A DNA stretch of 64,000 nt. Source: Owenia fusiformis. Its lineage: Eukaryota; Annelida; Polychaeta; Sabellida; Oweniidae. The translations under genes and the position numbers were made by a program. The stretch's first letter is position 1. Each line of letters begins with the position of its first letter. The notes under the pieces were generated by a model. It did not search any database. It saw only the letters and a program-made list of their open reading frames with translations, and was not told the origin of the DNA. The stretch is taken from NCBI GenBank assembly GCA_903813345.2, contig CAIIXF020000012.1, forward strand, positions 11,020,932 to 11,084,931. The letters run 5' to 3'. Positions 16,701 through 61,224 of this stretch are shown here, piece by piece.

Positions 16701-18867
16701 ATAGGGTGTCTTGCATTACAATGGGATTACTAACTATTTATGCATGAACGGCACACGAAATGAAGCTTAGTAGATTAGGACACATTGTACTTCTTATATT
16801 GACAAGTAAAATTAAGTCTATCTACAAAACTCAAGATTTTAATCAAAGTTCTGTGAAAATATGTCAAAATTACTCATTTTAAGAGTCAACATGACACATG
16901 TTAAGAATCACTGTTAAAAACACCTTTTTACCATATTTTCCACACTATTTTTGTGATTTGTTGAAAATATACTTAATAAAGATTCAAATTGCATAAAAAT
17001 AATTCTGGAATTCCATTTTACCCTTTTCAATCATTTTCTAAGTTCTTATAGGTACACTAATAGGTACGGATCCTTTTGGCTTTTACCTATTTTTGAATCC
17101 TCCATCCTCCCAACGAACATCGTTTTATTTGATAGAAGCGGTGCAGTCTCTCTAGCATCTATTACTTTTACAACGCCGCTTTCTGAGTCCTTTAGTAACA
17201 TAAACAAACCACCTGGGCGTTGAGAAATAAAGTACATTTGATGGAGCGATAGACCTGGGTACGCTAAAACATGAGTGATGACTGATTTGTATGAAAGTAA
17301 ATTGTAGTAACTAAAATAAAACACCTATAAAGCTACTCCACTGTCACTGGCAAGGTTCCAAAGGTTCAGAGTCAATGAAGGGAGATATTGAATTGTACTA
17401 ACTAAAACCATAAACAAAGCACCTGCACCTGGGCGTTGAGAAATTGTAAAAGAAATTATGGTCCCCTGGGTATTATGGTCCCCTTTCTTAAAGGCCCTTA
17501 CTGGCCCTTATTGTGGATACGATATTAAGGGAAAGAGTTGTTTTCAGGTCACCATATAAATCAATGGAAAGTAGGACCATAATTTGTTAGGACCTCCTAC
17601 CCTTTTAAACCGGCAAGGTTACAAAGATTCAAAGTTGATGAAGGGAGATATTGAATTGCAAGGAATATACCTTTAAACTAGAAGCTGAAATCATACGTAC
17701 CACCAAGCCCTGTGAGAGAGGGTTTAACAACACCCATACAAAAGGTTGTAGCTATAGCAGCATCAACGGCATTACCCCCTCTCTTTAATATATTTCTGAA
17801 ACAAGCATTTTACAGTTCTGATGCAATATCACCAAAAAAACTGACAGTGATTGGGTACATCCACCTGCTAACATAGCCAGTCAAAAACTTTGAAACGGTA
17901 TGCACAATGAAAATTAGGATAATATTACGATAGGACAATGGCCAATATGACCCCGGATAATCTAAGCTTGTCACAAGATAAAATAGGTGGGCACTTCGGG
18001 GGCGGATCTGAAAATCAAGAGGGAGGGTGGCTAACATTTTTTCTTAAATTGTGGGCTCCGAATCTGAAAATTTGGACCCTATTTCATAAAAATGTGTTCA
18101 AAATTAGAAAATAATGCCCAGTAATGCCAGTTTGGTACCTAAATTGCTCAATTTATGTGAGAAGAAGAATATTTCCGGCCCTAAATGTTTTTGGGACGAC
18201 CTAAATTTTTTCTGAACCCGGGGGATGGCTGGGCACCCCCAGATCTCCCAATGTACTAGGCTAAATTGATACCCAACACAAAAAGGATACGATGAGCATA
18301 CATATGATTTTGGTATATGCCTAAGTGAAACCTAATAGATGCCTTAAAAGCAAACATGTTGACCTAAAATGAAAAAATAAACATACAGCAAGTTGGAACA
18401 CGCAGTCGGAAACATGCAATCTGAATCGTTCACATAACACTAACTTTGATGAACATGTGATGGAGTAATGCCTATCAAAATTAAGAATATATTTGATATT
18501 TTTAGGAACATTAACATACATTATTATTGAAAACAAAAACTCGTATTACCGTTTATGACCTATTGAGATGTTCAATGAAAAAGGTGTCAAGAGTACTCAC
18601 CTACCAACTTTAGAACATTCGACCACGTCAGACGTCACAGCAGCGTGTTTATATCTTTTTGGATCAGCGATCGATGGTCTCGTCCGTCGTGGATACGTGA
18701 ATCCTTTAAAAAAGCTTGCATCATCTGTATCAACATGTGTTGCCATGGTGATGTTGTTTTCTAGTGTCATCCATGTTGCTATGGTGACCGACCAAATTGA
18801 GATTCCAATGATTAGCAGGATGACGCCAAGCACTGATACCAGAAGAATAATCAGCGAAGTGGTACTC
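4783..18867 (-). CDS. GGT1: Gamma-glutamyltransferase (glutathione hydrolase), first exon not found
   Basis: Ten minus-strand exons with matching phases: 18867-18601, 17795-17701, 17212-17087, 14396-14189, 13909-13764, 9281-8983, 7522-7335, 6892-6649, 6228-6115, 4929-4783. Together they encode about 610 residues, against about 570 for vertebrate GGT1. The family cleaves the gamma-glutamyl bond of extracellular glutathione as a type II membrane ectoenzyme that self-processes. Seen here: a hydrophobic anchor ([16 protein letters not shown]) in the first listed exon, [17 protein letters not shown] (substrate-binding Arg), the processing and nucleophile Thr in [27 protein letters not shown], and the terminal [14 protein letters not shown]. 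All expected active-site residues are present. The PROSITE-type signature after the nucleophile differs at several positions. A TAA lies in frame just before the 18867 acceptor, so a short upstream exon must supply the start codon. The paralogue (GGT1 or GGT5) is not resolved. Confidence 0.95.
4995..5977. mobile_element. Decayed mariner/Tc1-type element with long terminal inverted repeats
   Basis: The ends are CAGTGTG and its complement, flanked by TA on both sides as expected for the IS630-Tc1-mariner superfamily. Inverted arms of about 150 bp or more can be followed inward, for example through ACTTTTTGTAAGTGTAAC near the right end. A remnant of a transposase C-terminus is readable at about 5330-5480 on the plus strand: a YDG-like residue group, then DWP and SNFTPL, which resembles the family's QDGA...DWPPRSPDLTP region. 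It is interrupted by a stop. It lies in the last intron of GGT. Confidence 0.8.
6329..6470 (-). mobile_element. tRNA-derived SINE, copy 1
   Basis: On the minus strand a near-perfect pol III B box (GGTTCGATTCC) follows a tRNA-like GTAGAGC block. The body ends with an AGCTCCCCG segment. The same order of blocks occurs in the plus-strand copy at 15090-15247, so the two belong to one SINE family. It lies in a GGT intron, next to exon 6228-6115. Confidence 0.75.
7754..8785 (+). mobile_element. Mariner-like element with N-terminal transposase remnant
   Basis: The left end CAGGGTGTTCC is preceded by TA. Arms of about 200 bp are inverted copies of each other; both contain the motif GGTTGCTATAGTAACC or its complement. 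The outermost right tip is missing. A plus-strand frame at 8239-8535 encodes [13 protein letters not shown], which matches the conserved FEWHKRFKEGRE-type motif in the DNA-binding part of mariner transposases. No DDD catalytic half follows, so the copy is non-autonomous. It sits in the GGT intron between exons 7522-7335 and 9281-8983. Confidence 0.82.
9362..13365. mobile_element. Four-kilobase foldback element with arms over 1.2 kb
   Basis: Bases 9362 to about 10585 reappear as the reverse complement of about 12020-13365 with roughly 85-90 percent identity by eye. Landmarks are GCGTGCGTTCAGAGGGATTT near the left tip and its complement near the right tip, and GATTGGTTGCCATGGTAACC within. Each arm contains two to three sub-repeats of about 170 bp built around the phrase GCTATAACTTTTGAAATAA. 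The spacer (about 10600-12000) has a smaller nested inverted repeat at 10837-11000 and no recognisable transposase. It fills most of one GGT intron. Confidence 0.85.
15090..15247 (+). mobile_element. tRNA-derived SINE, copy 2
   Basis: An A-box-like TGGCGTAGGGG is followed by GTAGAGCG, a B-box-like GCGTTCGCTTCCC, then a body ending in AGCTCCCCGACGGACG. Block order and sequence match copy 1 at 6329-6470 on the other strand. It lies in the long GGT intron between exons 17212-17087 and 14396-14189. Confidence 0.75.
15535..15925. repeat. Tandem repeat of about 175 bp, a little over two copies
   Basis: Units begin with GGACAACATATTGAAAACAC or the variant GGGCAACATATTGAAAACAC and run through TGTGTTCTCAACAATAGTACC. 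The second unit starts near 15710 and a third partial unit near 15895. It is intronic in GGT, with no coding resemblance. Confidence 0.75.
17400..17450 (-). repeat. Extra copy of the 3' splice site and first bases of a GGT exon
   Basis: The minus strand carries CTCAACGCCCAG followed by a GTG...TTTGTTTATG segment, a copy of the acceptor and first codons of GGT exon 17212-17087. A separate 45-bp intronic phrase beginning GGCAAGGTT is also duplicated at about 17350 and 17622. The copy lacks the rest of the exon and any donor. It is one of seven exon-edge duplications in the window. Confidence 0.7.
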
Positions 18868-18893
18868 CTGCATTAATGGTGTATATCTTATCT

Positions 18894-19052
18894 CATAATA
18901 AACAAATACTGGATGATCAGGAGCTGGATATGGCAGAAAACCTATTCGAGAAAAAATAATGGGCGAGGCGGTAGCCGAGCCCAATATTTTTTTCGAGGAT
19001 AGGTATTCTGGCCATATCCAGCTCCTGATCATCCAGTATTTGTTTTATTATG
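18894..19052. mobile_element. Palindromic MITE-like hairpin
   Basis: Arms of about 70 bp are near-perfect inverted copies: CATAATAAACAAATACTGG at the left end and its complement at the right. The loop side contains GGCGAGGCGGTAGCCGAGCC, itself partly palindromic. It lies immediately upstream of the first recognised GGT exon, so it interrupts the first intron or 5' region. A 100-codon minus-strand frame here is only a by-product of the palindrome. Confidence 0.85.
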
Positions 19053-19152
19053 CACCTCCCAATCAAAGTTAAGTGGAGTACTTACTGGAGTACAGGCTTA
19101 AACTGTCGTTTAGTTGACATCATTTTGACATTTATTTAGTATTATTTCTTTC

Positions 19153-19619
19153 AAGGTGTCACTCCGGTAAATAGCACTTCCTACCACAGTGTTTTTTAAT
19201 ACTTTAAAAACGAAGCCATGCCAACTTCAATGGTGTGTATAGTAGGTTTAAGTGTATGCAATGTGGCCATTTGACGTATGTATGTAAAGCTGAGGCCAAG
19301 TACCTTCTAAATGTGCCATTTTAAGAAAAAAATCGCAAGAATATAGTCCCGTAAACTGGAACTACTTTATTCGTTAATTTTCATCGGTGAAGCATGGATT
19401 TTACCTGAAAATGAGTCCCTATGTTGGCGTAGTGATATATAAAAATCGAGACGCAAACCCTATGTTAAATATAGTATCAAGATGAAGGTTATGTATAGGG
19501 GAACGCAGAAATATAGTCATTGTATGGGCTAGTTCGTTCGAAAATTGCGATATGTACCCCAGAACTTGAATTTTGTGATTTTATCAATATTTTTCAATGA
19601 TTTACAGGAGTGACACCTT
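19153..19619. mobile_element. MITE with AAGGTGTCACTCC ends, copy 1
   Basis: The element has short terminal inverted repeats (AAGGTGTCACTCC and GGAGTGACACCTT). It is almost identical over its whole 467 bp to the copy at 20405-20872, in the same orientation. TTAA-like bases occur at some of its edges, which would suit a piggyBac-type target site, but they are not present on all sides. It has no coding content. Confidence 0.88.
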
Positions 19620-20404: not shown

Positions 20405-20872
20405 AAGGTGTCACTCCGGTAAATGGCACTTCCGGGTAGGACAGTGTTTTTTAATACTTTAAAAACGAAGCCATGCCAACTTCAATGGTGTGTATAGTAG
20501 GTTTAAGTGTATGGAATGTGGCCATTTGAGGTATGTATATAAAACTGAGGCCAAGTACTTTCTAAATGTGCCATTTTAAGAAAAAATCGCAAGAATATAG
20601 TCCCGTAAACTGGAACTACTTTTTTCGTTAATTTTCATCGGTGAAGCAGGGATTTTACCTGAAAATGAGTCCCTATGTTGGCGTAGTGATATATAAAAAT
20701 CGAGACGCAAACCCTATGTTAAATATAGTGTCAAGATAAAGGTTATGTATAGGGGAACGCAGAAATATAGTCATTGTATGGGCTAGTTCGTTCGAAAATG
20801 GCGATATGTACCCCAGAACTTGAATTTTGTGATTTTATCAATATTTTTCAATGATTTACAGGAGTGACACCT
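20405..20872. mobile_element. MITE with AAGGTGTCACTCC ends, copy 2
   Basis: This is the second near-identical copy, 785 bp from copy 1 and in direct orientation. The pair encloses 19620-20404, a non-coding AT-rich segment. High identity between the copies suggests recent insertion or duplication of one from the other. Confidence 0.88.
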
Positions 20873-23905: not shown

Positions 23906-23980
23906 AAAAATTTTCATTTTAGGTTGGCAAGTCTGATGAGTGTGATATTCTTACGTATAGACGACGATTTATAGGAATAT

Positions 23981-26206
23981 CACACTTATGGACATATATG
24001 GACATAAATACAAATGATTCGCTTTTGAACTGATCGGAATTTTCACAACCATTTTAAGCGTTTAATCTGATGTCCAGACCTAATACTATTTTATGCTTTT
24101 TCTTTTACTATAAATCTGTGTACTCCGTCAAAAATCTTATACTTTTGGATAAGCGTGTTTTAAATCGTGGGAGATATTTTTTGAGGCACACAGCTAATAA
24201 TACTTATGGCTACATGTTAATGAACCAAATGTCAAAGGAAATCCATATATGATCGATTAAATAAGTGAAATCGATGCATCAAATTGTGAAGAAACTGCCG
24301 TCTACCACCAACAAACTGCACGCCAAACCGTTTAAGGTATAATGACAACAATTCTGTATCAGTAAAATATATTAGTTTTATTCACATGTAACAATCAAAG
24401 ATCGTCTAAAAACTAGAAGTAATCAGATAAAAGATTCATTGCATAACAAATATTTGGCAATCTTTAACGTTCACATTTTCTTAACATTTCTTTTATTTCA
24501 CCGACGTTGAACATGCCAAACATATTCAATAGACCTTTCCATTAAACTCTGCTACCTTTTTCTATACCAAAGAGACTATATACAGGGTGTGCCAAAAAAT
24601 TGCAACTTTTTCAAAAGGCTAGAAAAGTAGCATAACATTATGGAACTAACATACAATTTTTGAAGTTAGTATTAGCTTCGTATTTGAATGGTAAAATATG
24701 CCCCTCCATCTGTCCATAAGTTTCTGTAAAAAATTATTTATGTCAATACCATGTTAAGATATTTTTCCAGCCTTTTAAAAAAATTGCTAATTTTAATGAT
24801 AGTCTAATGATTGCTTTTAGGTCACAAACAATAATCTCAGAAGAAATTTTCAAAGTTGTCTTAGTTAATCATATTTTTGTTGTAAACATTGCTAGTACTA
24901 ACTATGATATCATAAATCTATTGTAGCTTTGTTGGTTTAGCAAAATGTGGCGTGATTTCTCATTCTTCTTCATGTACATACATGTAATATGCTATTAGTA
25001 GGATATTTCATACTTTGTTTCAGAACGTTCTATATCTATATGAAATCAAGAGATTTATTACATTTTTAAAAACATTGTTTTAAAGACATTGTTTTAAATA
25101 CTTTGTTGAATTGTGAAAAAATGTAAATACAGTGTACCCAAGAAGAAAAGATAAAAATGCTCTAATATATTTATTTTCATTTATTTCATTTGAGTAACAT
25201 ATCTCACACAGACACCATAGGGTATATATGTGTCATATGTCATATGAAACCGGTTAGTAGTGAAACTGGGAACTATAATTATTATGGATAATGAAATCAT
25301 CCAATATCATTAAAATCTTAAAATTCAATCATTCGAATATTTACTTCCCGGACACCCTGTACTTGGTGGATTTTGCGTTTCACATAAGAATATTCTACTG
25401 GCTTAAATTGGCTGAAACATGTAAATATTGTTTGATATATTGAATATACCTTTGTGCTCCCTTTAAGTGCTCCCCCGTTCAATATACTGAAGTTCCAAAT
25501 TTTCATTTATGTCATTTTATACAATTTTTCAATCAAACGTGCAAAAAGATAATTGTAGCTTTTAAGCAGACACCCGGGTTTTTAATAAATTAGTATCAAT
25601 AACCCATATGCGAGTAGGTAGTTACCAGGTTGGTAAATTAATATGGCAGATACACAAGTGAGTTCCCTTAAACTCGAAATTCATTAGTTTAAGTGGATAA
25701 TTTTTATATATATTAACCCCTATGTGTCTGATAATCATACAAATGAAAATATGTTAAAAGAAAATAGTATCTCTCCAACACAAGAAAGGATATTTCACTT
25801 TTTGTGAATTTGTATCATTTTATAACACCCAGTTAAAATCCATAAATAACAGCAAAATGAAAAATCTTGATGTTTCTCTCATTAACCATATGTTTAATCA
25901 TATGTCTCCAAGAATCCAGATCTCTCTCTTGTTTCCTTGGCACTTTCTTTGACTGAAAATAAATAAAAATATTTATGTACTTTTTTTCAAAATAATAATG
26001 ACTATTTTGCAATTTATGGAATATGTTTACAAAGTATTCAAATGTCCTGACATGATCAGAGATTGACCCCAACCACCACCTGCCATTTGTTACAGATGCC
26101 ATTTTATAGACGCTAAACTTCGAATGCTGGACACCAAAAACCGTCTACAAAAATGTTGGAGACTATAACAATATTTATACATATGACATCAGTTGTAGTT
26201 GTGACA
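23981..26206. repeat. Right copy of 2.2-kb direct segmental duplication
   Basis: This is the partner of 1-2220, about 24 kb away in direct orientation. It contains the intact final coding exon of HEATR6 (25894-25952) with its acceptor, plus about 1.9 kb of 3' flank. Because HEATR6 is continuous with this copy, it is the ancestral one and the left copy is derived. Confidence 0.93.
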
Positions 26207-29200
26207 TTAAAAAATAGATGAACAAATATGATGTCAACATTTATAAATTACAAAGACTGAGGTAGTTAATTCAAATTCTATAGAGAATAACATGAAATAG
26301 ACCATCAGGACTATTTTCTAAAGGCTTAAACACGTCCCAACAGCAGAGGTGTCATTAGAACTTAAAACAGGTTAAACAAAAATGGCAACAAAAGCCATTT
26401 TTTGAAAATATTATACTTTTAATATTGAAAAATTTGCAAAATTCCTAACAAGGCATGAACAAAAAATAAACTACGGTGTGAGCTTGAAAAAAGACCTTTT
26501 TGAAAAATTTGGTCAAATTGAAGCAGGTTGAAAAATAGACATTTTTGACTTTGAGAAGGTCAAACCTCAAATTTTAAGTCGGATTTGAATTTCTGAGAAC
26601 TTGTAGGTGATTTTGAAAAAAGTTGAAGTCAATCTAAATAGTATTTGTTAAGTTTGACCTTTCATGGTGACATAAAAATAACATGACAAGTTATTTTGGC
26701 AAAAACAACTTGAGAAAATCTCCAATGTCTTGCAGCTGATGAAACCCTGTTAAGGGAGGATACATACCTTGAACAGGCTTCTCTAAGATGTCTGTCAAGA
26801 TCTGCCATGCAGAGTGCTGCTCTTTAGTTAATTGAGACTCGGACAGTTTCCGCATATGTTCCACAGCTTCTTGTAGTTTACTTTCTGAAATAAAGCAAAA
26901 GGATCACAATTCCAGTGTTTTCCTCAATCTAGACAAAATTTGGTCAAAATATCCTATTTTTCATGATGATGATGCAAATGAATTTTCAGGTGGGTGCACA
27001 CCTGTTTCTGAAATCTCAGCTGGGTGCTGCGCCCACTTGCTTTAATGCTGGGGAGATCACTGAATGCAATGCCACTTTGGAATTCTCCATGCAACATGTT
27101 CAATTAATTGTCCACCTGAGTTATTGACTGATTCTAAATGAAGACATTCACTATTCTAGTCATGTTTAAAATTGACCGCAATCTTTTATTGGAGAAAATT
27201 CATTGCAAGTACGTTTATGGCCATATTCAAAACAGCAAATTTTGGTTCAGTAATTTTCTGCATTTGCCCATTTTGCTTTTAATTAGTCAATTGTTTATTG
27301 TTTAAAATACATAAAAACATCCATCATACTAAGTATTGTTTATACACTTAAGTATTGCTTATACACTTAAGTATTGCTTATACGTTAAGTATTGCTTATA
27401 CACTTTAGTATTGCTTATACACTTATCTAAATTGTATACCTTTATCTGTCCTGTCAGCACCCTCAAGGGAAGATATATTGACAATATGTTTAGAAAGGTA
27501 CATGTCCACATGTTGCGACTTGTCAAAGAACAGTGCTCCTAAGGCTACAAGGTCATCAACTGCTATAAGGCACACCAGTTGTACGACTGTTACACATATC
27601 TGGAAATATGTACAGAGTGTTCACCAAATAATACATGTGATAGACAAATTATTGAGAAAGTTTACAGAAATGTAGGAATCTGTTAAATTACATTAAGATG
27701 AATGTTGATAGTGACTAAAATAACAATCCTATTTTTTCATGATTTTTCTCATGAACAAATGCAAATGAATTTTCAGGTGGGTGCACGCATGTTTCTGAAA
27801 TCTCAGCTGGGTGCTGCGCCCACTTGCTTTAATGCTTGCTTTAAAGTGTGCGCCAAAGTTTAAAACTGCGCAGGCGCACCGCTCTCGCTAAACTATATAA
27901 AGAGATTGCCCGGTACACGATTCAGAGGTAAGCCAGGAAGGCGAACGATCTTCGTCTCGTGATGATTTCCCATATAATCTTAACCAGGGAAGTTTCAACA
28001 TTGAAATTGAAAATTACTATTAGATATACTTTGTAGATGTTATTTATGAAGCTATTTAGTGTTTGCATCAATCAAATGGCTCATTTTGAACATATAAAAC
28101 GTATTTGTGCTTTGTTTCCCAGGGAATTGTATTGTATGTAGTACACACATAAATAGTGTACATTATACGTGAATAGCCTGGTTTACATAATATTGAAGGG
28201 CATGCTGATTACATGCACACGAGTACATGAATGAAGGCCTAATATTGATATACGTAGCTTGCATACCTAAATAAAAAATAAACTCTTCTAATCCCCTAAT
28301 GTAAACACGGCGGTATACGTAGCCCGATTTATCGGGGACTTTAAGTTAAGTGGTACACCTTGGGTGTGGCATAGTGGACCCAGTAAGAGAACGAGATACA
28401 CATATAGCTAACCATACCTGATCTACCAGAGTGTCCCTGTATTTATAGTCAGCAAAGTCATGGATGTCTTCTGTGGACTCCAATGCCTCTATAAGACTCC
28501 TCCACACTGTAAAATGCATTTAATTAAACAAGGCACATGGTGAACAATGATCATACTAAACTTTGGGTCACATCAGATTGACGACTGAAATTATTTCCCA
28601 TTCTTAAAATGTTTTGATATGCATCCAGGTGAAATTTTGGAAAAAATCGTGAAAAAACATTCTTTTTTAGCTAGATAAGAAACAAGATCACAAAGTGATA
28701 ATAAATATCGCACTTTGAGGAGCAAAATGGCTGCTGTGTAATTTTTAACCAAGTATGCCTAAAACCCAATTCAAGTCTTGGCACTAGACTGGTTTTGCAT
28801 CTGTTAAAATCAAGCTGAATGCATCAGTAATTTTCCTTGAATTTCAATGACTTAATGTGGCCCCAGCCTACCTGACATACAAACGGACACCCATCAGCAC
28901 AAGATAAGGATAGCTCTTTCAAAGTGCGATAATAACCCTAGAGAGTACAATCAATTATTTTTTGACTTACCAGAGAGGAACATTCCACTGTCTCCATACA
29001 TTGACCTCTGTTGTATGTTTGACAGTGCCAGGGCTGCATTGATCCGGACTTTATAGTTCTTACAGTCCTTAACAACTGAACACAGACTTGAGTAGATTTG
29101 ACTCTGAAATATTCAAAATGTGTTTACATTATAGTAAAGTGGAGCACCTCCGGAAGTGAAACATGTCCATATGTGGAACACTTTTTAGAGTCCTAACTGA

Positions 29201-32200
29201 CTAATAGACTTAATGTTAAAGGAATCTTTGTAAGTAGAACACCTCCAAAAGAGGAAGACTTCAATACCCCAATTGACCAACTGACTTAATGTTAATCAAC
29301 CTTTTAAGTGGAACACCTCCTAGGTGGAACACTTTTAGTGTTCCACTTAAACAGGTTTTACTGTATTTCTATCTAATTTTATTTCAAAACTAGAAAACAG
29401 CAACTCTGAAGAGTTTCAAATCCCAACAAACCAGACATATGTTATTAAATTCCCTATTTTTTGACATGATAGAAATAATATAATAAGTAGTACATAAATC
29501 TAGTTACCCATTGTCTACTTTTGCAAAATATACACCCATCATGTGGGCTGCCAACAATTGATATTTGAGTCATCAAAAATATTTTTTTATAATAAAGTAA
29601 ATTCCAGGCCATTTGGAATTCAACAGTTATTTTGGAAATTCCTACTATTGAGCATATTTCAAGGAAGATTTGTTTGTGTAAACTAAGTATGTTTGACTGA
29701 GTAATTCACTACTCGTGCAAAAGGCAGTGGTGTGTACTTGTACGACTATTTATAAGTGCAGCAAATGTAAGCCATATGTTATCTAACCTCACTTAGCCAC
29801 CCGTTGATGACCTACTTGCACTAAAAACCTGTTATTTTCAGCTGACATCAGGGAGATTTATTTGAAGCATTGTTTAAACAGCTCTTTAATAAAAAAAATT
29901 ATATAACATTATCATGATTATTGAGATTATACTAACAATCACGTCAATTAAGTTATAAAAATCTTGATGTACTGTTGTAAACAAGTGCCTTTACGTAAAC
30001 AACAGTCCCTTTAGTAACAAGTGGCTTTTAAGTGATAATTTAACAATAAAATCAAAGAAATTCATAAGTTGAAGAAAAACTCATCAATTCTAATTCTATA
30101 CAAGGCATTAACATGACAAAATGTCACCACCTAGTTGCTCACAACTTTATGAATCTTTTTTTACCTTTTGAAGGTCAATAGGAGTCAACCTCTAAAATCT
30201 ATTGTCACTCTCTGATTTGAAATCTGACATTAAAATTGGTCAATTTGAAGCAAGTTTTTTGACCTTAGAAGGCCATTGAAGATGAAATCTAAAATCTAAA
30301 GTCAGATTTGAACTTCTGAGAACTTGAGGATGATTTGAAAAAAACATTTGGTCAATTTAAAGCAAGTTGAAAAATACCTTTTTGACCTTTTTAAACCTAT
30401 TTTTGACCTTGAGACGATCATTGAAGGTCAAATCTTAAGTTTCAAATCAGATTTGTTCTTCAGAAAACTTTGAAAAAATTGAAGTCAGTCTAAACAGTAT
30501 TTGAAGTTATTGGAATTTGTAAGAATTTGTTACAGACATCAATTGCTAACCACCACACGCCATCCATCGATTGCCAACTGCCAGCAACTGCTTTTTTGGT
30601 GGTGACATAAAAATGCTATTAATTTGTGGCATCACGATAAGAACTTGTTGATTCAAATCAATCATGTAAAAAACAAACATTTTACTGGCTTGTTGGCTTT
30701 ATGAAGGCAATAGGCCATTAAAAGTCATCTTTATGAGGGAAGATCCACATATTCTGGTAAATAAGTTGCAATAAATTCTTTTAGTTATCCCATGACATTT
30801 TCATAGATGGAACGAAATTCATCTGGAAATATGGAACAGCAAAATATTTTAGATTAGAATTTCATTCCTGGTTTATTTGCTTATTTGTTACCATGGAAAC
30901 AATAGCTGGGATAACTAAAATACTACAAATAAATAAAAAACATACAATGTCTTTATCTACCTTGCTTTACATCTGAAAATGTTTATGTATTGTACATTAT
31001 AATAAATTATACTATTCTAAACAAATATTGTGAGGTATGGTATTCATAATCATACTGCCACTTTAAAACTCATATATTAATTGTTAAAGCCACATCTTTC
31101 ACTAAAACTCCCTGAGTTACAAAACTGACTGACCCCGAGACAACCATTTCACATTTTGAAAGAGATAACCTTGTCTACACTCTGAGAAAGAATGTTTTAG
31201 AGCTAGCTGGTATCAAACAGAAGTTTGTACTAAAAAAGTCACATCACCGACTTTTCTGGTAACATATGCTTAAAGAAACAACAACAACTCATAAAACCAT
31301 AAAAGCTACTTTACAATTGGTTCAAATCATATCAGCACGAAAACTACAAAATCATCTGTCATCATTGGAGGATGATATAGCTAGTTGATGGAGTTCAGGC
31401 TAAGGGTAGACCCCTTCAGAAAATGTACAAATAGTGAAATGTAATTTTAGATATTTATTCCCAGTCTTATCTTTAAAAAATATTAACCGATGTTTATCAC
31501 TTTTTCTGTTCTAAACAATTATGAAGTCAGGAATAAAAATTGAGTCATTTCAAATTCAACCATTTTTTAAACCTCAAATTTTGACCATTGATGTTTTCTT
31601 CAAAGGACTTCACAATAACTGACTAGAATGTACTAGGGACACTTGCACATGTCACATGGGAGAATTGTGTCACGTTGGTATAAATACTTTATAAGTCGAA
31701 GAAAATAGACAAAGAGGGATTGGAAAGCAATCTTTCTTTCAAAACCACACACACTATTCAAGATGGTGAAAATGTATAGTTTCAAGCAAGACTTAAGTGA
31801 GAAAAGGTCTCAGAGTCAACAAAAAATAATAGAAGCTCTCGGGACAATGGATGATGACAAAGATACAACAGGAGAACGAAAACCAAATTTGGACACCAAA
31901 CAGAAAATACTGAAGAACTTATTTATTCTAACCATTGGATCAATGTTGGTCAATATCCCGAGTTTTGGTTTGATCAGTCTTCAGAGTAGCTTAAATAATG
32001 AAGGTGGCCTTGGGGTAGCTGCTATAAGTTGTCAATGGGCTGCATTTGGTCTCACTAGTTTGCTTATTGCGCCTTCTTTTTTCAACACATTTGGTGCCCG
32101 AAAGTCATTTTTCGTCTCTTGGGTGCTATTCCTGACTTTTACCATAGCAAATGCCTTTCCAAGTTGGTATAGCTTAATACCAACAAATATATTGATTGGA

Positions 32201-38200: not shown

Positions 38201-41200
38201 ATTGCCCTTCACCCAAGCTGACTTAACCTTCCTATTAATCAAAGTCTTACTTGTTCACCACAAGAGCATCACTGATATTGCCCAACACCCAAGCTGACTT
38301 AACCTCCTTATTAATCAAAGTCTTACTTGTTCACCACAAGAGCATCACTGATATTGCCCAAAACCCAAGCTGTCTTAACCTCCCTATAATGAAAGTCTTA
38401 CTTGTTCACCATAAGAGCATCACTGATATTGCCCAACACCTAAGCTGACTAATAACCTCCCTATTAATGAAAGTCTTACTTGTTCACCACAAGAGCATCA
38501 CTGATATTGCCCAACACCCAAGCTGACTTAACCTCCCTATTAATCAAAGTCTTACTTGTTCACCACAAGAGCATCACTGATATTGCCCAACACCCAAGCT
38601 GACTTAACCTCCCTATTAATCAAAGTCTAACTTGTTCACCACAAGAGCATCACTGATATTGCCCAACACCCAAGCTGACTTAACCTTCCTATTAATCAAA
38701 GTCTTACTTGTTCACCACAAGAGCATCACTGATATTGCCCAACACCCAAGCTGACTTAACCTCCCTATTAATCAAAGTCTTACTTGTTCACCACAAGAGC
38801 ATCACTGATATTGCCCAACACCCAAGCTGACTTAACCTCCCTATTAATCAAAGTCTTACTTGTTCACCACAAGAGCATCACTGATATTGCCCAACACCCA
38901 AGCTGACTTAACCTTCCTATTAATCAAAGTCTTACTTGTTCACCACAAGAGCATCACTGATATTGCCCTTCACCCAAGCTGACTTAACCTTCCTATAATC
39001 AAAGTCTTACTTGTTCACCACAAGAGCATCACTGATATTGCCCAACACCCAAGCTGTCTTAACCTCCCTATAATGAAAGTCTTACTTGTTCACCACAAAA
39101 GCATCACTAATATTGCCCAACACCCAAGCTGTCTTAACCTCCCTCTTAATGAAAGACTTACTTGTTCACCACAAGAGCATCACTGATATTGCCCAAAACC
39201 CAAGCTGACTTAACCTCATTATTGATCAAAGTCTTACTTGTTCACCACAAGAGCATCACTGATATTGCCCAACACCCAAGCCGTCTTAACCTCCCTATTA
39301 ATGAAAGACTTACTTGTTCACCACAAGAGCATCACTGATATTGCCCAAAACCCAAGCTGACTTAACCTCATTATTGATCAAAGTCTTACTTGTTCACCAC
39401 AAGAGCATCACTGATATTGCCTAACACCCAAGCCGTCTTGATTCGGACACTCAGGTTGCTCTCCTCCATCAGTTCAATCACTTTGTTTGCAGTATCAGCA
39501 ACAAAGCAGACATCCTACAAATGCATCATCTATTAAGATCAAGGATCATTCTGGCATCTCATGAACTAACTCATGAACATCTGCTAAATTCTGAAATTCT
39601 GCTAAAAATGTCGAGGCTGCACCATTCTGAGTGTTGTGTGGGGGTTTAATTTTAAATATAACTTACAGACATCGTACTGTATACAAGTAAATCAGCTAAT
39701 AACTATAGTAGACTGACATGGATAGAGGACAAACTATAAAGACTTACCTCTCTCAGACATGGATAGAGAACAAATACACCAAGGGCTCGTATTGCAGATG
39801 CTCTTACATGACAGTCCTCATCACTGGTCACACCAAGTAATAATGTCACACATGATATCCTGTGACGCATCTGAAAACACAAAGCAACAATGTCACACAT
39901 GATATCCTGTGACGCATCTGAAAACACAAAGCAACAATGTCACACATGATATCCTTGGACACATTTGAAATTTGGAATTTCTTATGATGAAAGAGGTTAG
40001 ATAGCGCAGACAGCTTGACTTTGGAAACACACTTCTGCCTCGAGAAAGAAATCAGTATATGAAGATTTGCAAAGAAATTTGGTATGAGTGAAGTAAATGT
40101 TTTTCCTGACATGTAAAAATTTAAACCGGAAAACCAAATTTTTCTCCAAATTACAACAGTAATAAGAAATGTGCTTTACATAATTTTCAAAATTTTATAA
40201 AAAAAATCACAGATGTACGATTATAGTAAATGCAATCAAATATCATATGATATACACGAATCTAGGATACATGTAATGTATAATGTACATAATTCTATAA
40301 TAGACACATCTGTTAGTTTGAAAATATCAATGATACTAAAAAATGTATATACTCACAGAGAATTGTTCAAACACTTTAGCTCCTATGTTGGATATACAGT
40401 CACATATTGTAGCTCTAAGTTGGGCATGATTTTGATTTTGTATTCCTGACCTTATAGGTTTGTCCAGTATACTCAACCAAAAGTCAACTCCCTACAAGTA
40501 AAAATAACAAGGTATTAATATGTAACCAGAACAACGGCAACGCCAAAGTGTAGCGAATCCCATCGAACAGAAATGGCTGGCATTTTTACAAACGAAATAT
40601 ATAGCAAATATCATAAAATATTTACACACATAAGAAAGGCCACCATTTTCAAAATGGTTGCTCACTTGCCAAGTTGTCATCAGAAGTAATATGCTTTTTT
40701 TCTAGCATTCACAACCAAATATGAACAAAATCGCTCCACTACTTTTCAAGTAAGAGCAAAAATTGTAAAATAACAAGTAAAGGCCGAGTAAAATACGTTT
40801 AAATGGCGGCCATTTTTCAAAATGGTCACCTTCTACCAAAAGTGTCATTAGACAGTGTACCATGCTTATAATATTCACATACCAAATATGAACAAAATCG
40901 CTCCACCACTTTTCAAGTTATAGTAAAATAAGTTAAAATGGCAGCGATTTTTCAAAATGGCCACCTTCTACCAAAAGTGTCATTAGACAGTGTGCCATGC
41001 TTATTTTATTCACATACCAAATATGAACAAATTCGCTCCACTACTTTTCGAGTTAAAGTAAAATACGTTAAAATGGCGGCCATTTTTCAAAATGGCCACC
41101 TCCTACCAAAAGTGTCATTAGACAGTGAGCCATGCTTAAAATATTCACATGCCAAATATGAACAAAATCGCTCCACTACTTCTTGAGTTACAGCAAAAAT

Positions 41201-44200
41201 CGTAAAATAACGAGTAAAGGCTGCTATTTTTCAAGATGGCTGCCATGTGCTTCTTTAATATCTACATTTCTAGCTTTATCAATGTCCTATATAATTTTTT
41301 TACATTTAAAACATATTGCTATTACAGTTTTACATATTGCACCTAAATTACAGTAAAATCAGCACTAAAATGGCCGCCATTTTTAAATGAGCGGCCATTT
41401 TGAAAATCGGCTTTCGAGCAGAACTTCTATTCCCATAGGGTATATGTGTACAAAATATGAACAAAATCGGGCCAACGGTATTTGAGTTATTGCCCGGACA
41501 GACGGACGGATGGACGGACGTACGGACAGACGTACGTACGGACGGATGGACGGAGGTGTTCCCTTTATCCCTCCGAACTTCGTTCGATGGGATAAATATC
41601 CACCACCTGCAATTTGTTACAAATACAGCTAGACTTGGATTACATTTAATGAATAAACACAAGGAGCACACACGTCTCGAACTTGCAACCTTGCGGTTAC
41701 GGCGCCCAATCCCCTAGCTCAAGCCCCTCGGCCAACTCAAGAACCCCAATAAAGGTTGTTTTAACCATCTACTTAAAAAAGTAAGCTGAATTACTTCTTT
41801 CAGAGTGAGTCTGTCTGCATTAGATGGGGCATCAACAGCTGGTTGTATTTGTGTGAGTATCATAGGACCAAGAGCTTCCAGTAGCTTAGCACCATGTAAC
41901 TGTACAGAAGGGTCTGCTTCTTCGCAACAGTATTGTATTGTGTCCCTCAGTAGGACTACACTATGTCTGCAATATAATAGGGTATAATATAGCACCATGT
42001 AACTGTACAGAGGGATCTGTAAGGGGTTCGAAAGTTTGTGTGCCTAGCCCTAAGGGGTGTATTCGACGATATTATCCCTGCTCTGAGGTCTATATTACGA
42101 TTCGAACATGAAAACTCACCAAAATGTTTCGAATATTCATTATGGTCCGCCATTACTACGGTCCGCCGTTATGACGTCACACATTACATGTATTACAAGG
42201 GGCATTGTTCGCGAATATACCCCGGGTGAAATGTTGACTTTGTTTACAGTTAATAGAAGGCATGAATACAGTCATGTTTGAATAGGGTATAATATAGCAC
42301 CATGTAACTGTATAGAGGGGTCTACCTAATATCGTATTGTGTCCCTCAGTAGAACTACACTTATGTCTGCAATATAGAGTATATTTTAGAAATTCTACAG
42401 GGAGAAGTTGGCACTATTATGAAATGTTATTTTACTCTTACAGCAGATGACTTTATTTACCTGATTAATGGAAAGTAAGATTTTGCAAGGTGGACCAAGA
42501 CTTGTAGTGCTTCTAAGACCACTGGTAGAGGTTCTGTTGCCCCACTTGGTCTTGTAGGACATCCACTTCCTGGAATTTATGTAAAATATTCAATTATACA
42601 AAGATTAAGCATGTAAACAATGAATTTAATATAGTGCCTCTAAGACCACTGGTAGAGGTTCTGTCGCCCCACTTGGTCTTGTAGGACATCCACTTCCTGG
42701 AATTTATGTAAAATATTTAATTATACAAAGATTAAGCATGTAAACAATGAATTTAATATAGTGCCTCTAAGACCACTGGTAGAGGTTCTATCGGCCCACT
42801 TGGTCTTGTAGGACATGCACTTCCTGGAATTTATGTAAAATATTTAATTATACAAAGATTAAGCATGTAAACAATGAATTTAATATAGTGCCTCTAAGAC
42901 CACTGGTAGAGGTTCTGTTGCCCCACTTGGTCTTGTAGGACATGCACTTCCTAGAATTTATGTAAAATATTTAATTATACAAAGATTAAGCATGTAAACA
43001 ATGAATTTAATATAGTGCCTCTAAGACCACTGGTAGAGGTTCTGTCGCCCCACTTGGTCTTGTAGGACATCCACTTCCTGGAATTTATGTAAAATATTTA
43101 ATTATACAAAGATTAAGCATGTAAACAATGAATTTAATATAGTGCCTCTAAGACCACTGGTAGAGGTTCTATCGGCCCACTTGGTCTTGTAGGACATGCA
43201 CTTCCTGGAATTTATGTAAATTATTTAATTATACAAAGATTGAGCATGTAAACAATGAATTTAATATAGTGCCTCTAAGACCACTGGTAGAGGTTCTGTT
43301 GCCCCACTTGGTCTTGTAGGACATCCACTTCCTGGAATTTATGTAAAATATTTAATTATACAAAGATTAAGCATGTAAACAATGAATTTAATATAGTGCC
43401 TCTAAGACCACTGGTAGAGGTTCTGTCGCCCCACTTGGTCTTGTAGGACATGCACTTCCTGGAATTTATGTAAAATATTTAATTATACAAAGATTAAGCA
43501 TGTAAACAATGAATTTAATATAGTGCCTCTAAGACCACTGGTAGAGGTTCTGTTGCCCCACTTGGTCTTGTAGGACATCCACTTCCTGGAATTTATGTAA
43601 AATATTTAATTATACAAAGATTAAGCATGTAAACAATGAATTTAATATAGTGCCTCTAAGACCACTGGTAGAGGTTCTGTTGCCCCACTTGGTCTTGTAG
43701 GACATCCACTTCCTGGAATTAATGTAAAGTATTTAATTATACAAAGATTGAGCATGTAAACAATGAATTTAATATAGTGCCTCTAAGACCACTGGTAGAG
43801 GTTCTGTTGCCCCACTTGGTCTTGTAGGATATCCACTTCCTGGAATTTATGTAAAGTATTTAATTATACAAAGATTGAGCATGTAAACAATGAATTTAAT
43901 ATAGTGCCTCTAAGACCACTGGTAGAGGTTCTGTTGCCCCATTTGGTCTTGTAGGATATCCACTACCTGGAATTCATGTAAAGTATTACAAAGATTGAGC
44001 ATGTAAACAATGAATTTAATATAGTGCCTCTAAGACCACTGGTAGAGGTTCTGTTGCCCCACTTGGTCTTGTAGGACATCCACTTCCTGGAATTTATGTA
44101 AAGTATTTAATTATACAAAGATTGAGCATGTAATCAATGAATTTAATATATTTTTTCTTTAACTACATTTTTTAAACTGAAAAACTCACCACATCTCTCA

Positions 44201-50200: not shown

Positions 50201-52261
50201 TAAGCATCATCAGTCATCTGGACCTGTAACTTCTGCTACATCACAGGTCCAAGTGAAAACCAACCAGTCCTTAAAATATTAAAGTTACTTCGAATTCAGA
50301 ACTATATGTATTGGCACTTACCTAAAAGATATATAACTACATGTACGTATGATTTACATGTATACCATTATCACTATGTGTGTGTGTTAGACAGTATAGT
50401 TCATAATAAAGATATTATAAAAGATTCATTCTCCTCTTTATTGCTAGTAATTAACAATATTGAACAACTTTTAGAATCATAAAGTAGCCATGGATGGGTT
50501 TTTTCCCATGATTTCTGGTACGTGCGTTATTTACCCTCCTTGTTGTCATGTTTCGTCTTTTTCTGTTTGTTATTATTCTCATCTTCACATCCTTGCAGTT
50601 CTTGAGTACGTTTTTTATTGAAAATAGACCACATTTTGTGACATTTGTCAAAAGTTCAAAAAGAAATTTAAAAAATTAATACAGGAACCGGAAATTACTT
50701 TTGCTACACTGGACGAAAACAAATGTAGTTTGTATCTTCACCCGGGATTGTTTAACCTCCATTTATCCTACTCGATCAATTTATGAATATCCATATAATT
50801 TCTCGTTATAATTATATTTATTTAATAGTTAGTGGACAGTAATGAAGTCCCTGTGTTGGAATTCCCGGTTAATTTGCTTCCATAATCAGAAATTTTACAT
50901 CGAATGAAATACCATATGGTCACTACCCACAATTCATTTCGACCAATCAGAAAACAGTTTTTCCAAGTTATTGATAGATTATGCTACGCAATTTATCCTC
51001 GTTTGCAGACCTGAAAATCAAAAAATATTTCAAAAAATCCTGTCTGTTTTAAAGATTTTCGATGTGATAATGAGTAAAATCTTGAGTAAATGAAGTTCAA
51101 CGATTGGACTGATGTTTGAGGTAAGACTTTGGTGCATATCTTAGCCATCGGACTTGGACGGTCTTGTGGACTGGTTGGTTGGAATAAATCGTCAGTCCTG
51201 GGTCAACATCATCGAAGATGTCCCATGGTCCGACGCTTAGGAAAAACACTGGCTAGAACCCTTATACATCCTGGGTAACCATTGCTAGAAGTGGCTAGAA
51301 CCCTTATACATCCCAGGTTACCATTGCTAGAAGTAGCTAGAACCATTATATATCCTGGGTAACGGCTGCTAGAAGTGGCTAGAACCCTTATACATCCTGG
51401 GTAAGTGTTGCTAGAAGTGGCTAGAACCACTATTGACCCTGGATACCATTGCTAGAAGTGGCTAGAATCCATAAACACCTTGGGTAACTATTGCTAGAAG
51501 TGGCTAGAACCACTATTGACCCTGGATACCATTGCTAGAAGTGGCTAGAATCCATATACACCCTGGGTAACCATTGCTAGAAGTGGCTAGAACCATTATT
51601 GACCCTGGATACCATTGCTAGAAGTGGCTAGAACCCCCAGTTTATTAATATAAACAGCATAAGTCCCATTTGTAACGTGTAGCCAGACAGTTAACACATC
51701 TATGACTGATTGACTATAAGACTTATGACAGACTGAGTAACGACTTATACACCCATATGTAATTGTCTTATCATTCACTTGTTACTGTTTAAGTGATACT
51801 GCTTTGGAACATGATAACGGTCTGGGACTGTGTAATGCCAAGGCTACGCTAAACTCATATGGCAGATGCATGGCCCACGATTGTTACAAATCCAAGGATC
51901 ATCCGGATTGGATTCCGGATCATAAACATTCACGGCCCCAGATAACCACTGAGACTGCACAAGCAAATTGGTAGAATTATTTTTTGCCACATAAAAATTA
52001 TCATCTAGAAATTTTGAGACGACTGCTTCAACCAGATAAATTGACATTCCAAAAAAATCAAGAAAACTCAAAATTATATTTGTGTTTTACCTCATTTCCA
52101 GCAATTTTCTGTGTGTATTCGATAGAGTTAAGCTCGTCAATATAAAGATTGATATCCTTCTTAAATCCTTCATCACCTCTGTATACGATTGTGATCAATT
52201 TGGATCTATATTTTCGATATTTCTCCACTTCATTTTCAAAATAGAAACTCATGCCCGCCAT
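25894..52261 (-). CDS. HEATR6: HEAT repeat-containing protein 6, 21 exons
   Basis: Exons: 52261-52091, 49209-49102, 48655-48515, 48221-48109, 47849-47639, 46810-46182, 45694-45565, 45319-45220, 44894-44505, 42569-42461, 41966-41795, 40491-40357, 39870-39748, 39514-39390, 35927-35767, 35519-35365, 29103-28971, 28506-28418, 27599-27440, 26884-26768, 25952-25894. All phases agree, and the sum is 3,531 nt (1,176 residues; human HEATR6 is about 1,180). Strong family landmarks are FGYWSAFIPDSP, LEGSKQYLAVASED, EEADPSVQLHGAKLLEALG, SAIRALGVFVLYPCLRE, DKVKSNGVRAIGNL and ARWNACYAVGNMFKNP. It is an alpha-solenoid of HEAT/ARM repeats with a lysine- and serine-rich insert in exon 46810-46182 (KKNKKRRPKK, then SSSESEYSDTEGE). 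Its molecular role is poorly known. Exon 44894-44505 has a low-complexity Ser/Thr/Gln insert with a repeated SEVSQN motif. Several exons have duplicated edges, listed separately. Confidence 0.96.
26490..26690. repeat. Dispersed intronic repeat, copy 1
   Basis: This segment is rich in phrases such as TTGAAGCAGGTTGAAAAA and GATTTGAATTTCTGAGAACT. It resembles 30170-30540, where the same phrases recur in the same order. It lies in the last-but-one HEATR6 intron region. No coding potential is seen. Confidence 0.65.
26935..27060. repeat. Dispersed repeat family A, copy 1
   Basis: It contains CAGCTGGGTGCTGCGCCCAC, GGTGGGTGCACACC and GGGGAGATCAC. The same family appears at 27745-27840 in the same orientation and at 47383-47575 inverted. 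All three copies are in HEATR6 introns. Confidence 0.75.
27335..27425. repeat. Short tandem repeat of about 20 bp, five units
   Basis: Units read GCTTATACACTTAAGTATT with minor changes. The array ends 15 bp from the donor side of HEATR6 exon 27599-27440 but does not include the exon edge. Confidence 0.8.
27745..27840. repeat. Dispersed repeat family A, copy 2
   Basis: Its core is identical to the copy at 26985-27055, including CAGCTGGGTGCTGCGCCCAC. The right end is interrupted by a short duplication (CTTGCTTTAATGCTTGCTTT) just before the GC-rich segment at 27845. Confidence 0.75.
27870..27932 (+). promoter_or_regulatory. Candidate cryptic core promoter with a following 5' splice site
   Basis: A GC- and CpG-rich stretch in an otherwise AT-rich intron contains a good TATA box (CTATATAAAG, about 27890). 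About 35 bp later comes CAGAG followed by GTAAGCC, a strong donor consensus. The plus-strand arrangement could start a short leader exon. No coding exon or Sm site was recognised after it. It lies within a HEATR6 intron on the opposite strand. Confidence 0.3.
29131..29365. mobile_element. Pogo/Tigger-like MITE remnant
   Basis: The minus strand begins TACAGTAAAACCTGTTTAAG and continues with repeated GTGGAACACCTCC phrases; the left end is a diverged inverted copy (TAGTAAAGTGGAGCACCTCC). A CAGTAAAACCT-type end at a TA target is typical of pogo-group elements. Related fragments occur at 55275-55400, 61330-61420 and 61625-61660. It is intronic in HEATR6. Confidence 0.6.
30170..30540. repeat. Dispersed intronic repeat, copy 2
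   Basis: It carries the same phrases as 26490-26690 (GGTCAATTTGAAGCAAG and GATTTGAACTTCTGAGAAC), partly duplicated within the segment. It is in the HEATR6 intron that also holds the UNC93A-like gene. Confidence 0.65.
31678..31688 (+). promoter_or_regulatory. TATA box of the nested UNC93A-like gene
   Basis: GGTATAAATAC lies about 75 bp before the start codon at 31763. That leaves a 5' UTR of roughly 45-55 nt without an intron, which fits a self-contained promoter for a gene inside a HEATR6 intron. Confidence 0.55.
31763..33972 (+). CDS. UNC93A: UNC93A-like MFS protein, nested in a HEATR6 intron, with a frame break
   Basis: Three plus-strand exons: 31763-32725, 33088-33356, 33752-33972, about 484 residues in total, similar to UNC93A (about 457). 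UNC93 proteins are multi-pass membrane proteins of the major facilitator superfamily; UNC93A function is not well defined. The first exon shows the family hallmark SLQSSLNNEGGLGV, then SWYSLIPTNILIGIGTGINW and the cysteine loop CGSEFCPNSNLTG with possible N-glycosylation sites. The third exon has FVSRNMWQSVGVSTSFAIQ and YITIGVLSVGMVSYTILE. The start codon has a fair Kozak context (AAGATGG). Odd: exon 2 ends after two bases of a codon and the best exon 3 acceptor also needs two bases before the family frame, so the canonical join shifts frame and stops after about eight residues. Confidence 0.88.
34103..34108 (+). terminator. Candidate polyadenylation signal for UNC93A-like gene
   Basis: AATAAA occurs 131 nt after the TGA stop at 33970-33972, a usual distance for a short 3' UTR. 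The surroundings are A-rich, so chance occurrence is possible. Confidence 0.4.
34430..35290. repeat. Interspersed repeat with AAAATGGCCGCC phrases, copy 1
   Basis: It contains successive degenerate units with AAAATGGCCGCCTTC, AGTGTCA and AACAAAATCRCTMC-like phrases. The same family is better preserved at 40540-41470. The unit ends near 35278 with GGACACATGTATGGATAGAG, a decayed counterpart of the GGAC-rich tail of the other copy. Confidence 0.7.
35546..35620 (-). repeat. Extra copy of the 3' splice site and 5' part of HEATR6 exon 35519-35365
   Basis: A 75-bp unit starting GTAAGTGCAA on the plus strand occurs at 35471 (within the real exon and acceptor) and again at 35546. The copy keeps about 50 bases of coding sequence and a TTTTAG|GAAAG-like acceptor with small changes. 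It lies on the upstream intron side. Confidence 0.82.
36103..36352. repeat. Perfect 26-bp minisatellite, about ten units
   Basis: Units read ATGCACATGTGCAGAATG followed by TCATTTCA, with almost no variation. The unit contains the palindrome TGCACATGTGCA. It creates spurious open frames in three phases. It is in the HEATR6 intron between exons 39514-39390 and 35927-35767. Confidence 0.95.
36873..39383 (-). repeat. Tandem array of HEATR6 exon-14 3' end plus 5' splice site, about 33 units
   Basis: Units of about 77 bp on the minus strand carry roughly the last 50 coding bases of exon 39514-39390 (residues SAWVLGNISDALVVNK), its donor AA|GTAAGAC, and about 25 bases of intron. Nearly all units keep GTAAG; one near 38627 has GTTAG. 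Some units encode EVKSAW where the functional exon reads IKTAW. Only the copy at the high-coordinate end is joined to a full exon. Read-through past the real donor meets TAA at once (NK then stop). Confidence 0.95.
39871..39955 (-). repeat. Extra copies of the 3' splice site of HEATR6 exon 39870-39748
   Basis: A 47-bp unit that begins TGTCACACATGATATCC on the plus strand occurs at 39844, 39891 and, partly, 39938. The first lies across the real acceptor and the first codons of the exon. The second reproduces both with the same TTTTCAG|ATGCGTC junction. Confidence 0.85.
40540..41470. repeat. Interspersed repeat with AAAATGGCGGCC phrases, copy 2
   Basis: About four units of 130-170 bp contain CAAAATCGCTCCACTACTT, AAAATGGCGGCCATTTTTC and AAAGTGTCATTAGACAGTG. 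Related to 34430-35290. It lies in the HEATR6 intron between exons 41966-41795 and 40491-40357. The 3' side runs into the GGAC-rich microsatellite. Confidence 0.8.
41493..41555. repeat. GGAC-type microsatellite
   Basis: The run has GGACGGAC, GGACGTAC and GGATGGAC units. It terminates the AAAATGGCGGCC repeat and is followed by a CTTCGTTCGATGGGATAA phrase, as if it were the tail of a mobile element. Confidence 0.85.
41650..41740 (-). mobile_element. tRNA(Leu/Ser)-like SINE head or tRNA pseudogene
   Basis: The minus strand reads TTGGCCGAGGGGCTTGAGC (A-box-like, as in class II tRNAs), later GGTTGCAAGTTCGAGAC (B box). It does not fold into a full acceptor stem by eye and follows directly on the repeat at 41493-41555. 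It is a different family from the two SINEs at 6329 and 15090. Confidence 0.6.
42053..42225. mobile_element. Small inverted-repeat insertion inside a duplicated exon edge
   Basis: The left end GGGGTGTATTCGACGATATT pairs with CGCGAATATACCCC at the right end. The insertion separates a fragment of the duplicated HEATR6 exon-11 segment (41988-42017) from the rest (42285-42392), so it arrived after that duplication. Confidence 0.55.
42285..42392 (-). repeat. Extra copy of the 3' splice site and 5' part of HEATR6 exon 41966-41795
   Basis: The segment from GCACCATGTAACTGTA to ATGTCTGCAATATAG repeats the exon's first 80 or so bases plus its acceptor, with several mismatches and a short deletion. It lies on the upstream intron side of the intact exon. 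Confidence 0.8.
42600..44150 (-). repeat. Tandem array of HEATR6 exon-10 3' splice site plus 5' exon part, 12 units
   Basis: Units of about 127 bp each carry, on the minus strand, an intron tail ending ATAAATTCCAG and then about 60 coding bases starting GAAGTGGATGTCC. Starts of GTGCCTCTAAGACC fall near 42632, 42760, 42888, 43014, 43143, 43271, 43399, 43525, 43652, 43779, 43905 and 44023. None has the second half of the exon or its donor. The intact exon is 42569-42461. All units keep an AG at the acceptor position; one has CTAG. Confidence 0.95.
44955..45080. repeat. Dispersed repeat family B
   Basis: It contains CCATTTGTTACAGATGC, AACTGCC and GTTGGAGACTATAAC. The same phrases in the same order occur at 2095-2220, 26085-26206, 35630-35760 and, decayed, 45745-45840. 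Two of these are the ends of the segmental duplication. Confidence 0.7.
47383..47575. repeat. Dispersed repeat family A, inverted copy
   Basis: It begins GATCTCCCCAGCATTCAAGC and continues with GCACCCACCTGGAAATCC. It is the reverse complement of the family seen at 26935-27060 and 27745-27840. Intronic in HEATR6. Confidence 0.75.
49390..49550. repeat. Two-unit tandem duplication in HEATR6 intron 1
   Basis: AATGAATCCAAGGCTTCATA followed by CCT and an AAATCGAAT...GAATGTTTTCA segment occurs twice, about 75 bp apart. On the minus strand each unit includes CAGGTATGAAG or TAGGTATGAAG, which looks like a 5' splice site, but no exon was recognised beside it. Confidence 0.65.
50003..50070. repeat. Near-perfect 60-bp palindrome
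   Basis: CCAATTTGCATTGGAATTC through ATAAAATTTATC is followed directly by its reverse complement, with only a CGG-like centre. It is long enough to extrude as a hairpin. Its position is HEATR6 intron 1. Confidence 0.9.
51236..51640. repeat. Minisatellite of about 42 bp, nine to ten units
   Basis: Units contain GCTAGAAGTGGCTAGAACC followed by TTATACATCCTGGGTAACC-like sequence. An outlying pair of similar units is at 50070-50130, so the intervening segment (50130-51235) may have been inserted into an older array. It is in HEATR6 intron 1. Confidence 0.9.
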
Positions 52262-52303
52262 GTCAGTTCTCGCTCTCGTGATCTTCTTCCGGCGAGATCA
52301 AAC
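52262..52303. promoter_or_regulatory. 42-bp divergent promoter of HEATR6 and COQ5
   Basis: Only 42 bp separate the two start codons. The interval has CTTCCGGC, an ETS-type site. Both ATGs lie in YY1-like contexts: CAAACATGGCGGC for COQ5 and TGACATGGCGGGC for HEATR6. These resemble the TISU element (SAASATGGCGGC) used by transcripts with very short 5' UTRs, with one mismatch for COQ5 and more for HEATR6. There is no TATA box. Transcripts must either have minimal leaders or overlap. Confidence 0.75.

Positions 52304-61224
<8,921 letters not shown>

Follow-up and report, generated by a model that had tools for sequence, protein, structure and literature searches.

Minisatellite-like arrays across exon-intron boundaries of HEATR6 and COQ5 in the annelid Owenia fusiformis

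Why should several exons of neighbouring genes have one edge, splice site included, repeated in the adjoining intron, and which of the resulting splice sites is used? These questions are raised by a stretch of 64,000 nucleotides (C12:11020932-11084931) of the 498-Mb Owenia fusiformis assembly, referred to here as the window; positions are counted from its first base unless a contig is named. A sequence-only reading of the window had reported tandem copies of one exon edge at seven exons of a GGT gene, HEATR6 and COQ5. Three explanations were offered there: a mutational process favouring junctions, a decoy role for the copies in splicing and, as the null, neutral tolerance. In this study, the exon edges of HEATR6 and COQ5 were taken from the public annotation by exact protein mapping. 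The annotated Owenia proteins map residue for residue onto the window, HEATR6 (P0121, 1176 aa) in 21 exons and COQ5 (P0001, 338 aa) in eight, and the six exons that the earlier reading had placed in these genes coincide exactly with exons of the mapped proteins. COQ5 exon 2 has a single match in the genome. The third gene, which we take to be GGT, was named from reading of the sequence, and its exon edges are predicted rather than mapped from an annotated protein. The published Owenia annotation, of 26,966 genes, is described as RNA-seq based, with RNA-seq support for 99.29% of transcripts (PMC9977687).

Arrays across annotated exon edges

TRF reports 36 rows in the window, and five arrays cross an annotated junction. 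These belong to HEATR6 exons 10, 13, 14 and 16 and COQ5 exon 2, five of the seven exons originally named, and together hold 70 extra splice-site copies. The features are as follows.

39390-39514, minus strand: HEATR6 exon 14, real exon (exact map of P0121)
36856-39433, minus strand: array A, donor edge of HEATR6 exon 14; 76-bp unit, 33 extra copies plus the real one, 34 in all (TRF and unit alignment)
42461-42569, minus strand: HEATR6 exon 10, real exon (exact map of P0121)
42505-44150, minus strand: array B, acceptor edge of HEATR6 exon 10; 127-bp unit, 12 extra copies (TRF and alignment)
39748-39870, minus strand: HEATR6 exon 13, real exon (exact map of P0121)
39830-39970, minus strand: array C, acceptor of HEATR6 exon 13; 47-bp unit, 3.0 units, one extra full acceptor (TRF)
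35365-35519, minus strand: HEATR6 exon 16, real exon (exact map of P0121)
35470-35622, minus strand: array D, acceptor of HEATR6 exon 16; 75-bp duplication, one extra copy (TRF)
55118-55267, plus strand: COQ5 exon 2, real exon (exact map of P0001)
54201-55117, plus strand: array E, acceptor edge of COQ5 exon 2; 34-40-bp unit, 23 extra copies (TRF)
42295-42389, minus strand: gapped, displaced, non-tandem copy of the acceptor edge of HEATR6 exon 11 (exon 41966-41795; local alignment)
17409-17444, minus strand: gapped, short, displaced copy of the acceptor edge of the GGT exon at 17212 (local alignment)
36099-36351, minus strand: minisatellite lying wholly within the intron that contains array A; 26-bp unit, 9.7 copies, 100% match (TRF)

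At the two remaining exons (HEATR6 exon 11; GGT) the edge has a single copy, imperfect and displaced, and neither passes the junction-copy test. The former copy reaches a local score of 107 (best of 200 base shuffles, 27), and the latter is a 36-column match scoring 42 (best of 200 shuffles, 26).

The aligned unit of array A has 46 columns on the exon side and 30 on the intron side. Its GT is kept in all 34 units and GTAAG in 33 of them, and AG is intact in 13/13 units of array B and 24/24 of array E, real sites included, which gives 71/71 intact splice dinucleotides in these three young arrays. The array copies carry distinct variants and small indels; the real-site units of A and B have variants that are rare or absent in the other units, with A00 and A02 sharing most of theirs. 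The extra copy of array D is in frame and carries a stop. A single intact exon with its copies on the intron side, as first described, is indeed the arrangement found, yet any surviving duplication across a junction must look so.

We consider it likely that these are exon-intron-boundary minisatellites of the kind called mirages, neutral and tolerated by splicing. A short tandem duplication would happen to cover a splice junction, and unequal exchange or slippage would expand it within the intron. One complete exon would remain and its joined splice site would be used, presumably through exon definition, so that protein output would be unchanged and the array could survive; the copies would then drift neutrally, with no effect on fitness. 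Among the three explanations first offered, the null of neutral tolerance fits best: junctions show no excess per present-day intron base, and the decoy AGs of older arrays in a further gene, SH2B, are kept about as well as their neighbours (both below).

In amphioxus Adh3, tandem repeats lying astride an exon-intron boundary received the name mirages; globin genes have them too, at both boundaries. One such array has six and three units in two haplotypes of one gene, and the authors' data suggest regular splicing without interference (PMC3087553). PGBD5 has been added to the list, with TnC cited (PMC3902484). In the accessible portions of these reports, the mirages (Adh3, TnC, the globins BflGb6 and BflGb9, and PGBD5) are, like the Owenia arrays, minisatellite-like and placed at a 5' or 3' boundary. 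Intron plus exon sequence is repeated across an annotated boundary at the five window junctions and at two in SH2B, and either boundary can be duplicated, one donor and eight acceptors making up our nine matches. The amphioxus copies carry AG or GT in many units while regular mRNA is reportedly undisturbed; in Owenia the signals are likewise present, and splicing is read from annotated proteins. Mirages are further described as unstable in length between haplotypes or in soma, and as having homogenised inner units next to diverged ones at the cluster edge; the Owenia sequence is one haploid assembly, and the variants of its real-site units are given above. The Owenia case differs in its annelid host, in copy number (as many as 33 extra at a single junction) and in the presence of four arrays in one gene.

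Two further systems are related. Human CBS 844ins68, a common 68-bp duplication of the intron 7/exon 8 junction with normal mRNA (PMC2630376), is described as crossing a junction, as containing two near-identical splice sites and as using the one joined to the rest of the exon, all as in Owenia; it is, however, a single, segregating duplication without expansion into an array. In the Rogers model of intron gain by tandem genomic duplication (potato RdRp), as outlined in the accessible text, a gene likewise undergoes duplication around splice signals, but there a new intron arises inside coding sequence, whereas the Owenia arrays would just lengthen an existing intron. By the Owenia annotation alone, the copies lie in introns outside annotated coding sequence, and no intron made by them is seen.

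Ordinary intronic minisatellites have similar unit sizes and lie in introns of the same genes as the junction arrays; the unit of a junction array differs in including part of an exon and a splice site. The 26-bp minisatellite at 36099-36351 contains TGCACATGTGCA and is probably very young. Minisatellites of an earthworm metallothionein gene are intronic, and junction crossing is not stated in the accessible part of that report (PMC12783039). Among the matches listed in the open-access literature, as far as their accessible text goes, we found no report of junction-crossing arrays in annelids. The Owenia arrays are a new, rich occurrence of a pattern already named in amphioxus. With them, a feature known from a handful of amphioxus genes now extends to an annelid whose genome is assembled to chromosome level and annotated with RNA-seq, and in which its frequency, cause and effect on splicing can be counted genome-wide.

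Junction frequency and the lean towards acceptors

The number of repeats straddling a junction had been called striking. We sampled 343 kb of the 498 Mb, 263 kb of it in one stretch around the window, and weighted each point by 1/(1+copies), since present-day bases overcount expanded arrays. Further exons were predicted with a finder whose training set was the exactly mapped exons of HEATR6 and COQ5. Of 25 known internal exons it placed 20 exactly before retraining and 17 afterwards, the threshold being unchanged. The retrained version called 164 exons, and on the reversed sequence 32, so that about one call in five may be false; 64 of the 76 junctions outside the window and the eight GGT junctions inside it rest on this finder. 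The GGT exon at 17212 was left out of the 138-junction count. The outside loci, picked after the copy-bearing exons were known, were SH2B, with exact exons, and loci that read as coherent genes and that we take to be HERC2-like, thioredoxin-reductase-like, amidase-like and GGT paralogues. Dropped were retrotransposon open reading frames, those in minisatellites or repeat arrays (several with many 'copies'), a NACHT-WD40 cluster, a fibrinogen-like run, single-exon calls and three odd exons (C2 2642, C2 13184 and big 50988).

Local copies mark five of the 54 HEATR6 and COQ5 junctions, and 26% of intron points in the window (10.5% outside the junction arrays). Without weighting, local repeats take in 14.9% of the intron points (n=8,940) of the counted genes, against 9/138 junctions; per present-day intron base there is no junction excess. 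With weighting, the intron background falls to 3.4, 2.3 and 1.9% at identities of at least 75, 85 and 90%, while the junction count stays at nine of 138 at each cut (P = 0.044, 0.0051 and 0.0015, pattern-chosen window included). This points weakly to a modest, two- to threefold excess over the deflated background, pooled as it is with a window chosen for the pattern. At the same three cuts, the window itself gives 5/62 junctions (P = 0.13, 0.018 and 0.008) and the outside loci 4/76 (P = 0.15, 0.09 and 0.05), the outside cases being SH2B exons 2 and 3 and two HERC2-like exons with predicted edges. The pattern thus recurs in other Owenia genes.

Arrays were also counted instead of junctions. Tandem repeats are common, with 49 TRF arrays of period 30 or more in the 343 kb; six of these fall on counted junctions, against 1.31 expected under random placement (P 0.0016, window included). 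The window contributes four of 11 arrays (0.68 expected, P 0.003), a count that misses COQ5, where TRF ends the array short of the junction; outside, the figure is two of 38 (0.68 expected, P 0.15). Because selection of the window rested on the pattern itself, the outside figures give the fairer test, and on these no junction excess is established. The repeats are far beyond chance; a preference for junctions over other intron bases is only weakly supported. One uncounted array (L023:6295-7373; 137-bp unit, 7.9 copies, 96% match) starts four bases from a predicted exon edge.

The matches fall on 8/69 acceptors and 1/69 donors (Fisher P 0.033, window included), and outside the window on 4/38 acceptors and 0/38 donors. 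Neither this 8/9 share of acceptors nor the excess over the deflated background is predicted by neutrality without bias. Both would be expected under a mutational process that favours splice junctions, and 3' splice sites in particular, and raises the rate at which duplications start there two- to fourfold over the rest of the intron, whether through pyrimidine-rich slippage or through breaks tied to transcription and splicing. The same process would fit the TRF overlap, as well as the position of real acceptors above acceptor-like non-coding sites (P 0.003, window included). Such sites (n=461) have a weighted rate of 3.55%, however, against 2.08% for donor-like sites (n=756), so the acceptor lean stems in part from base composition, and real donors do not exceed donor-like sites (P 0.77). 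Moreover, selection holds exon sequence still, and copies of a junction therefore stay recognisable longer than intron-intron copies. With the weak outside figures, the reliance on predicted exons at loci chosen after the matches were known and the lack of any per-base excess, we regard a junction-favouring process as unlikely. An acceptor bias is unproven, and a mutational lean towards acceptors is possible.

A wider form of this proposal concerns the intron ends themselves. Upstream of the used acceptor of HEATR6 exon 13 lies aggatatcatgtgtgacattgttgctt, nearly identical to the exon's own aggatatcatgtgtgacattattactt, so the working 3' end of the preceding intron holds sequence shared with the exon. 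Similarly, HEATR6 exon 16, COQ5 exon 2 and SH2B exons 2 and 3 have a copy of the exon start within the intron, a few dozen bases before the acceptor in use. These five cases lend support to a reading in which 3' splice sites of Owenia and perhaps, given the convergence with amphioxus, those of animals at large are hot spots at which duplications start, and introns keep replacing their own 3' ends; we hold this to be doubtful. If true, introns would grow and turn over from their acceptors by self-copying, and acceptor hot spots would bear on both intron lengthening and the turnover of intron boundaries.

Splice-site choice and the fate of the copies

In all five window arrays, the splice site used by the annotated proteins is the one attached to the whole exon, and the same holds for the annotated SH2B protein (P0197) at exons 2 and 3. 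Although AG and GT signals occur in the array copies, no use of them appears in the annotated proteins of HEATR6, COQ5 or SH2B. When the coding sequence was spliced by script at each of the 70 alternative sites, every product had a premature stop, 54 nt or more upstream of the last exon junction. On a simple scale of splice-site strength, array A averages 3.11 (range -1.6 to 4.8) against 3.1 for its real site and array B 2.45 against 2.4, both means including the real site; in array C the copy and the real site both score 4.5. The real acceptor outscores its copies in array D (5.7 against 4.3) and array E (0.9 against a mean of -0.02, real site included), and site strength may therefore help its choice there. 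With many almost identical splice sites set apart mainly by position, such arrays offer a natural test of how the spliceosome chooses among equal sites. As a separate candidate, the use of array A units as pseudo-exons of 57 nt, from a weak TAG (score 0.3, in 16/33 copies) to the donor, was rejected: with units 76 bp apart, the intervening introns of 19 nt are too short.

In an extension of the earlier suggestion of decoys, the copies would be retained because they delay or gate splicing, or autoregulate it, with transcripts spliced at them passing to nonsense-mediated decay. This reading draws on the universal premature stops, on the equality of mean and real site scores in A and B and on the intact dinucleotides of A, B and E. 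The last could reflect selection, but low divergence suffices: these young arrays would appear intact regardless, and they are too similar to decide on splice-site constraint. More informative are the older arrays at the SH2B acceptors, roughly 86 kb (exon 2) and 92 kb (exon 3) past the window end, with 30 copies at a mean identity of 85.2% and 16 copies at 86.0%, respectively. In the exon 2 array, 87% of copies agree with the real site at the A and 87% at the G, against column means of 85% on the intron side and 91% on the exon side. For exon 3, the shares are 88 and 94%, against 88 and 83%, the G being kept somewhat above the column mean. Splice-site positions are thus not clearly better kept than their neighbours in these two arrays, and the decay of the decoy AGs at about the rate of their surroundings argues against a kept decoy function.

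Variation was also compared between the two parts of the unit. Values of pi are lower in exon-derived than in intron-derived sequence in arrays A (0.035 against 0.077) and E (0.016 against 0.075), and slightly reversed in array B (0.037 against 0.030); the two SH2B arrays differ in direction from each other, so there is no consistent sign of constraint. Together with the absence of copy use from the annotated proteins of the three genes, these results make retention as decoys very improbable, and neutral drift of the copies remains the preferred account.

That the assembler inflated copy numbers or invented arrays is scarcely credible: misassembly of one mirage is on record for an amphioxus draft genome (PMC3087553) and polymorphic arrays are hard to collapse into one haplotype, but the Owenia copies differ from one another as described above and the PacBio reads (170 Gb, N50 25.75-30.75 kb) far exceed the longest array, of 2.6 kb, making an artefact unlikely on the published methods as far as accessible (PMC9977687).

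Other features of the window

HEATR6 and COQ5 lie head to head (52091-52490), with the HEATR6 start codon at 52261 on the minus strand, the partial COQ5 record starting at 52289 and its first ATG at 52304 on the plus strand, an arrangement that suggests a shared promoter. At the other end of HEATR6, the last annotated exon (25952-25897) falls inside one copy of a 2.2-kb direct repeat of 94% identity (25-2224 and 23992-26210), and reading through beyond exon 20 gives an open end with a stop; the last exon may therefore be spurious. Plus-strand open exons within a HEATR6 intron (31763-32725) suggest a nested gene or gene fragment, the second having a weak UNC-93 match (PF05978, E 9.1e-5, 22.2 bits; cut-off 22.9) and the first none. 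Two HEATR6 introns (34477-35257 and 40537-41493) share an interspersed repeat, its copies related at 67-70% identity, in which motifs resembling AAATGGCCGCCATTTT occur. Adjoining COQ5, from 62772-64000 of the window to about C12:11120700, three genes in both orientations read as NACHT-WD40-like, and the piece inside the window has a WD40 match.
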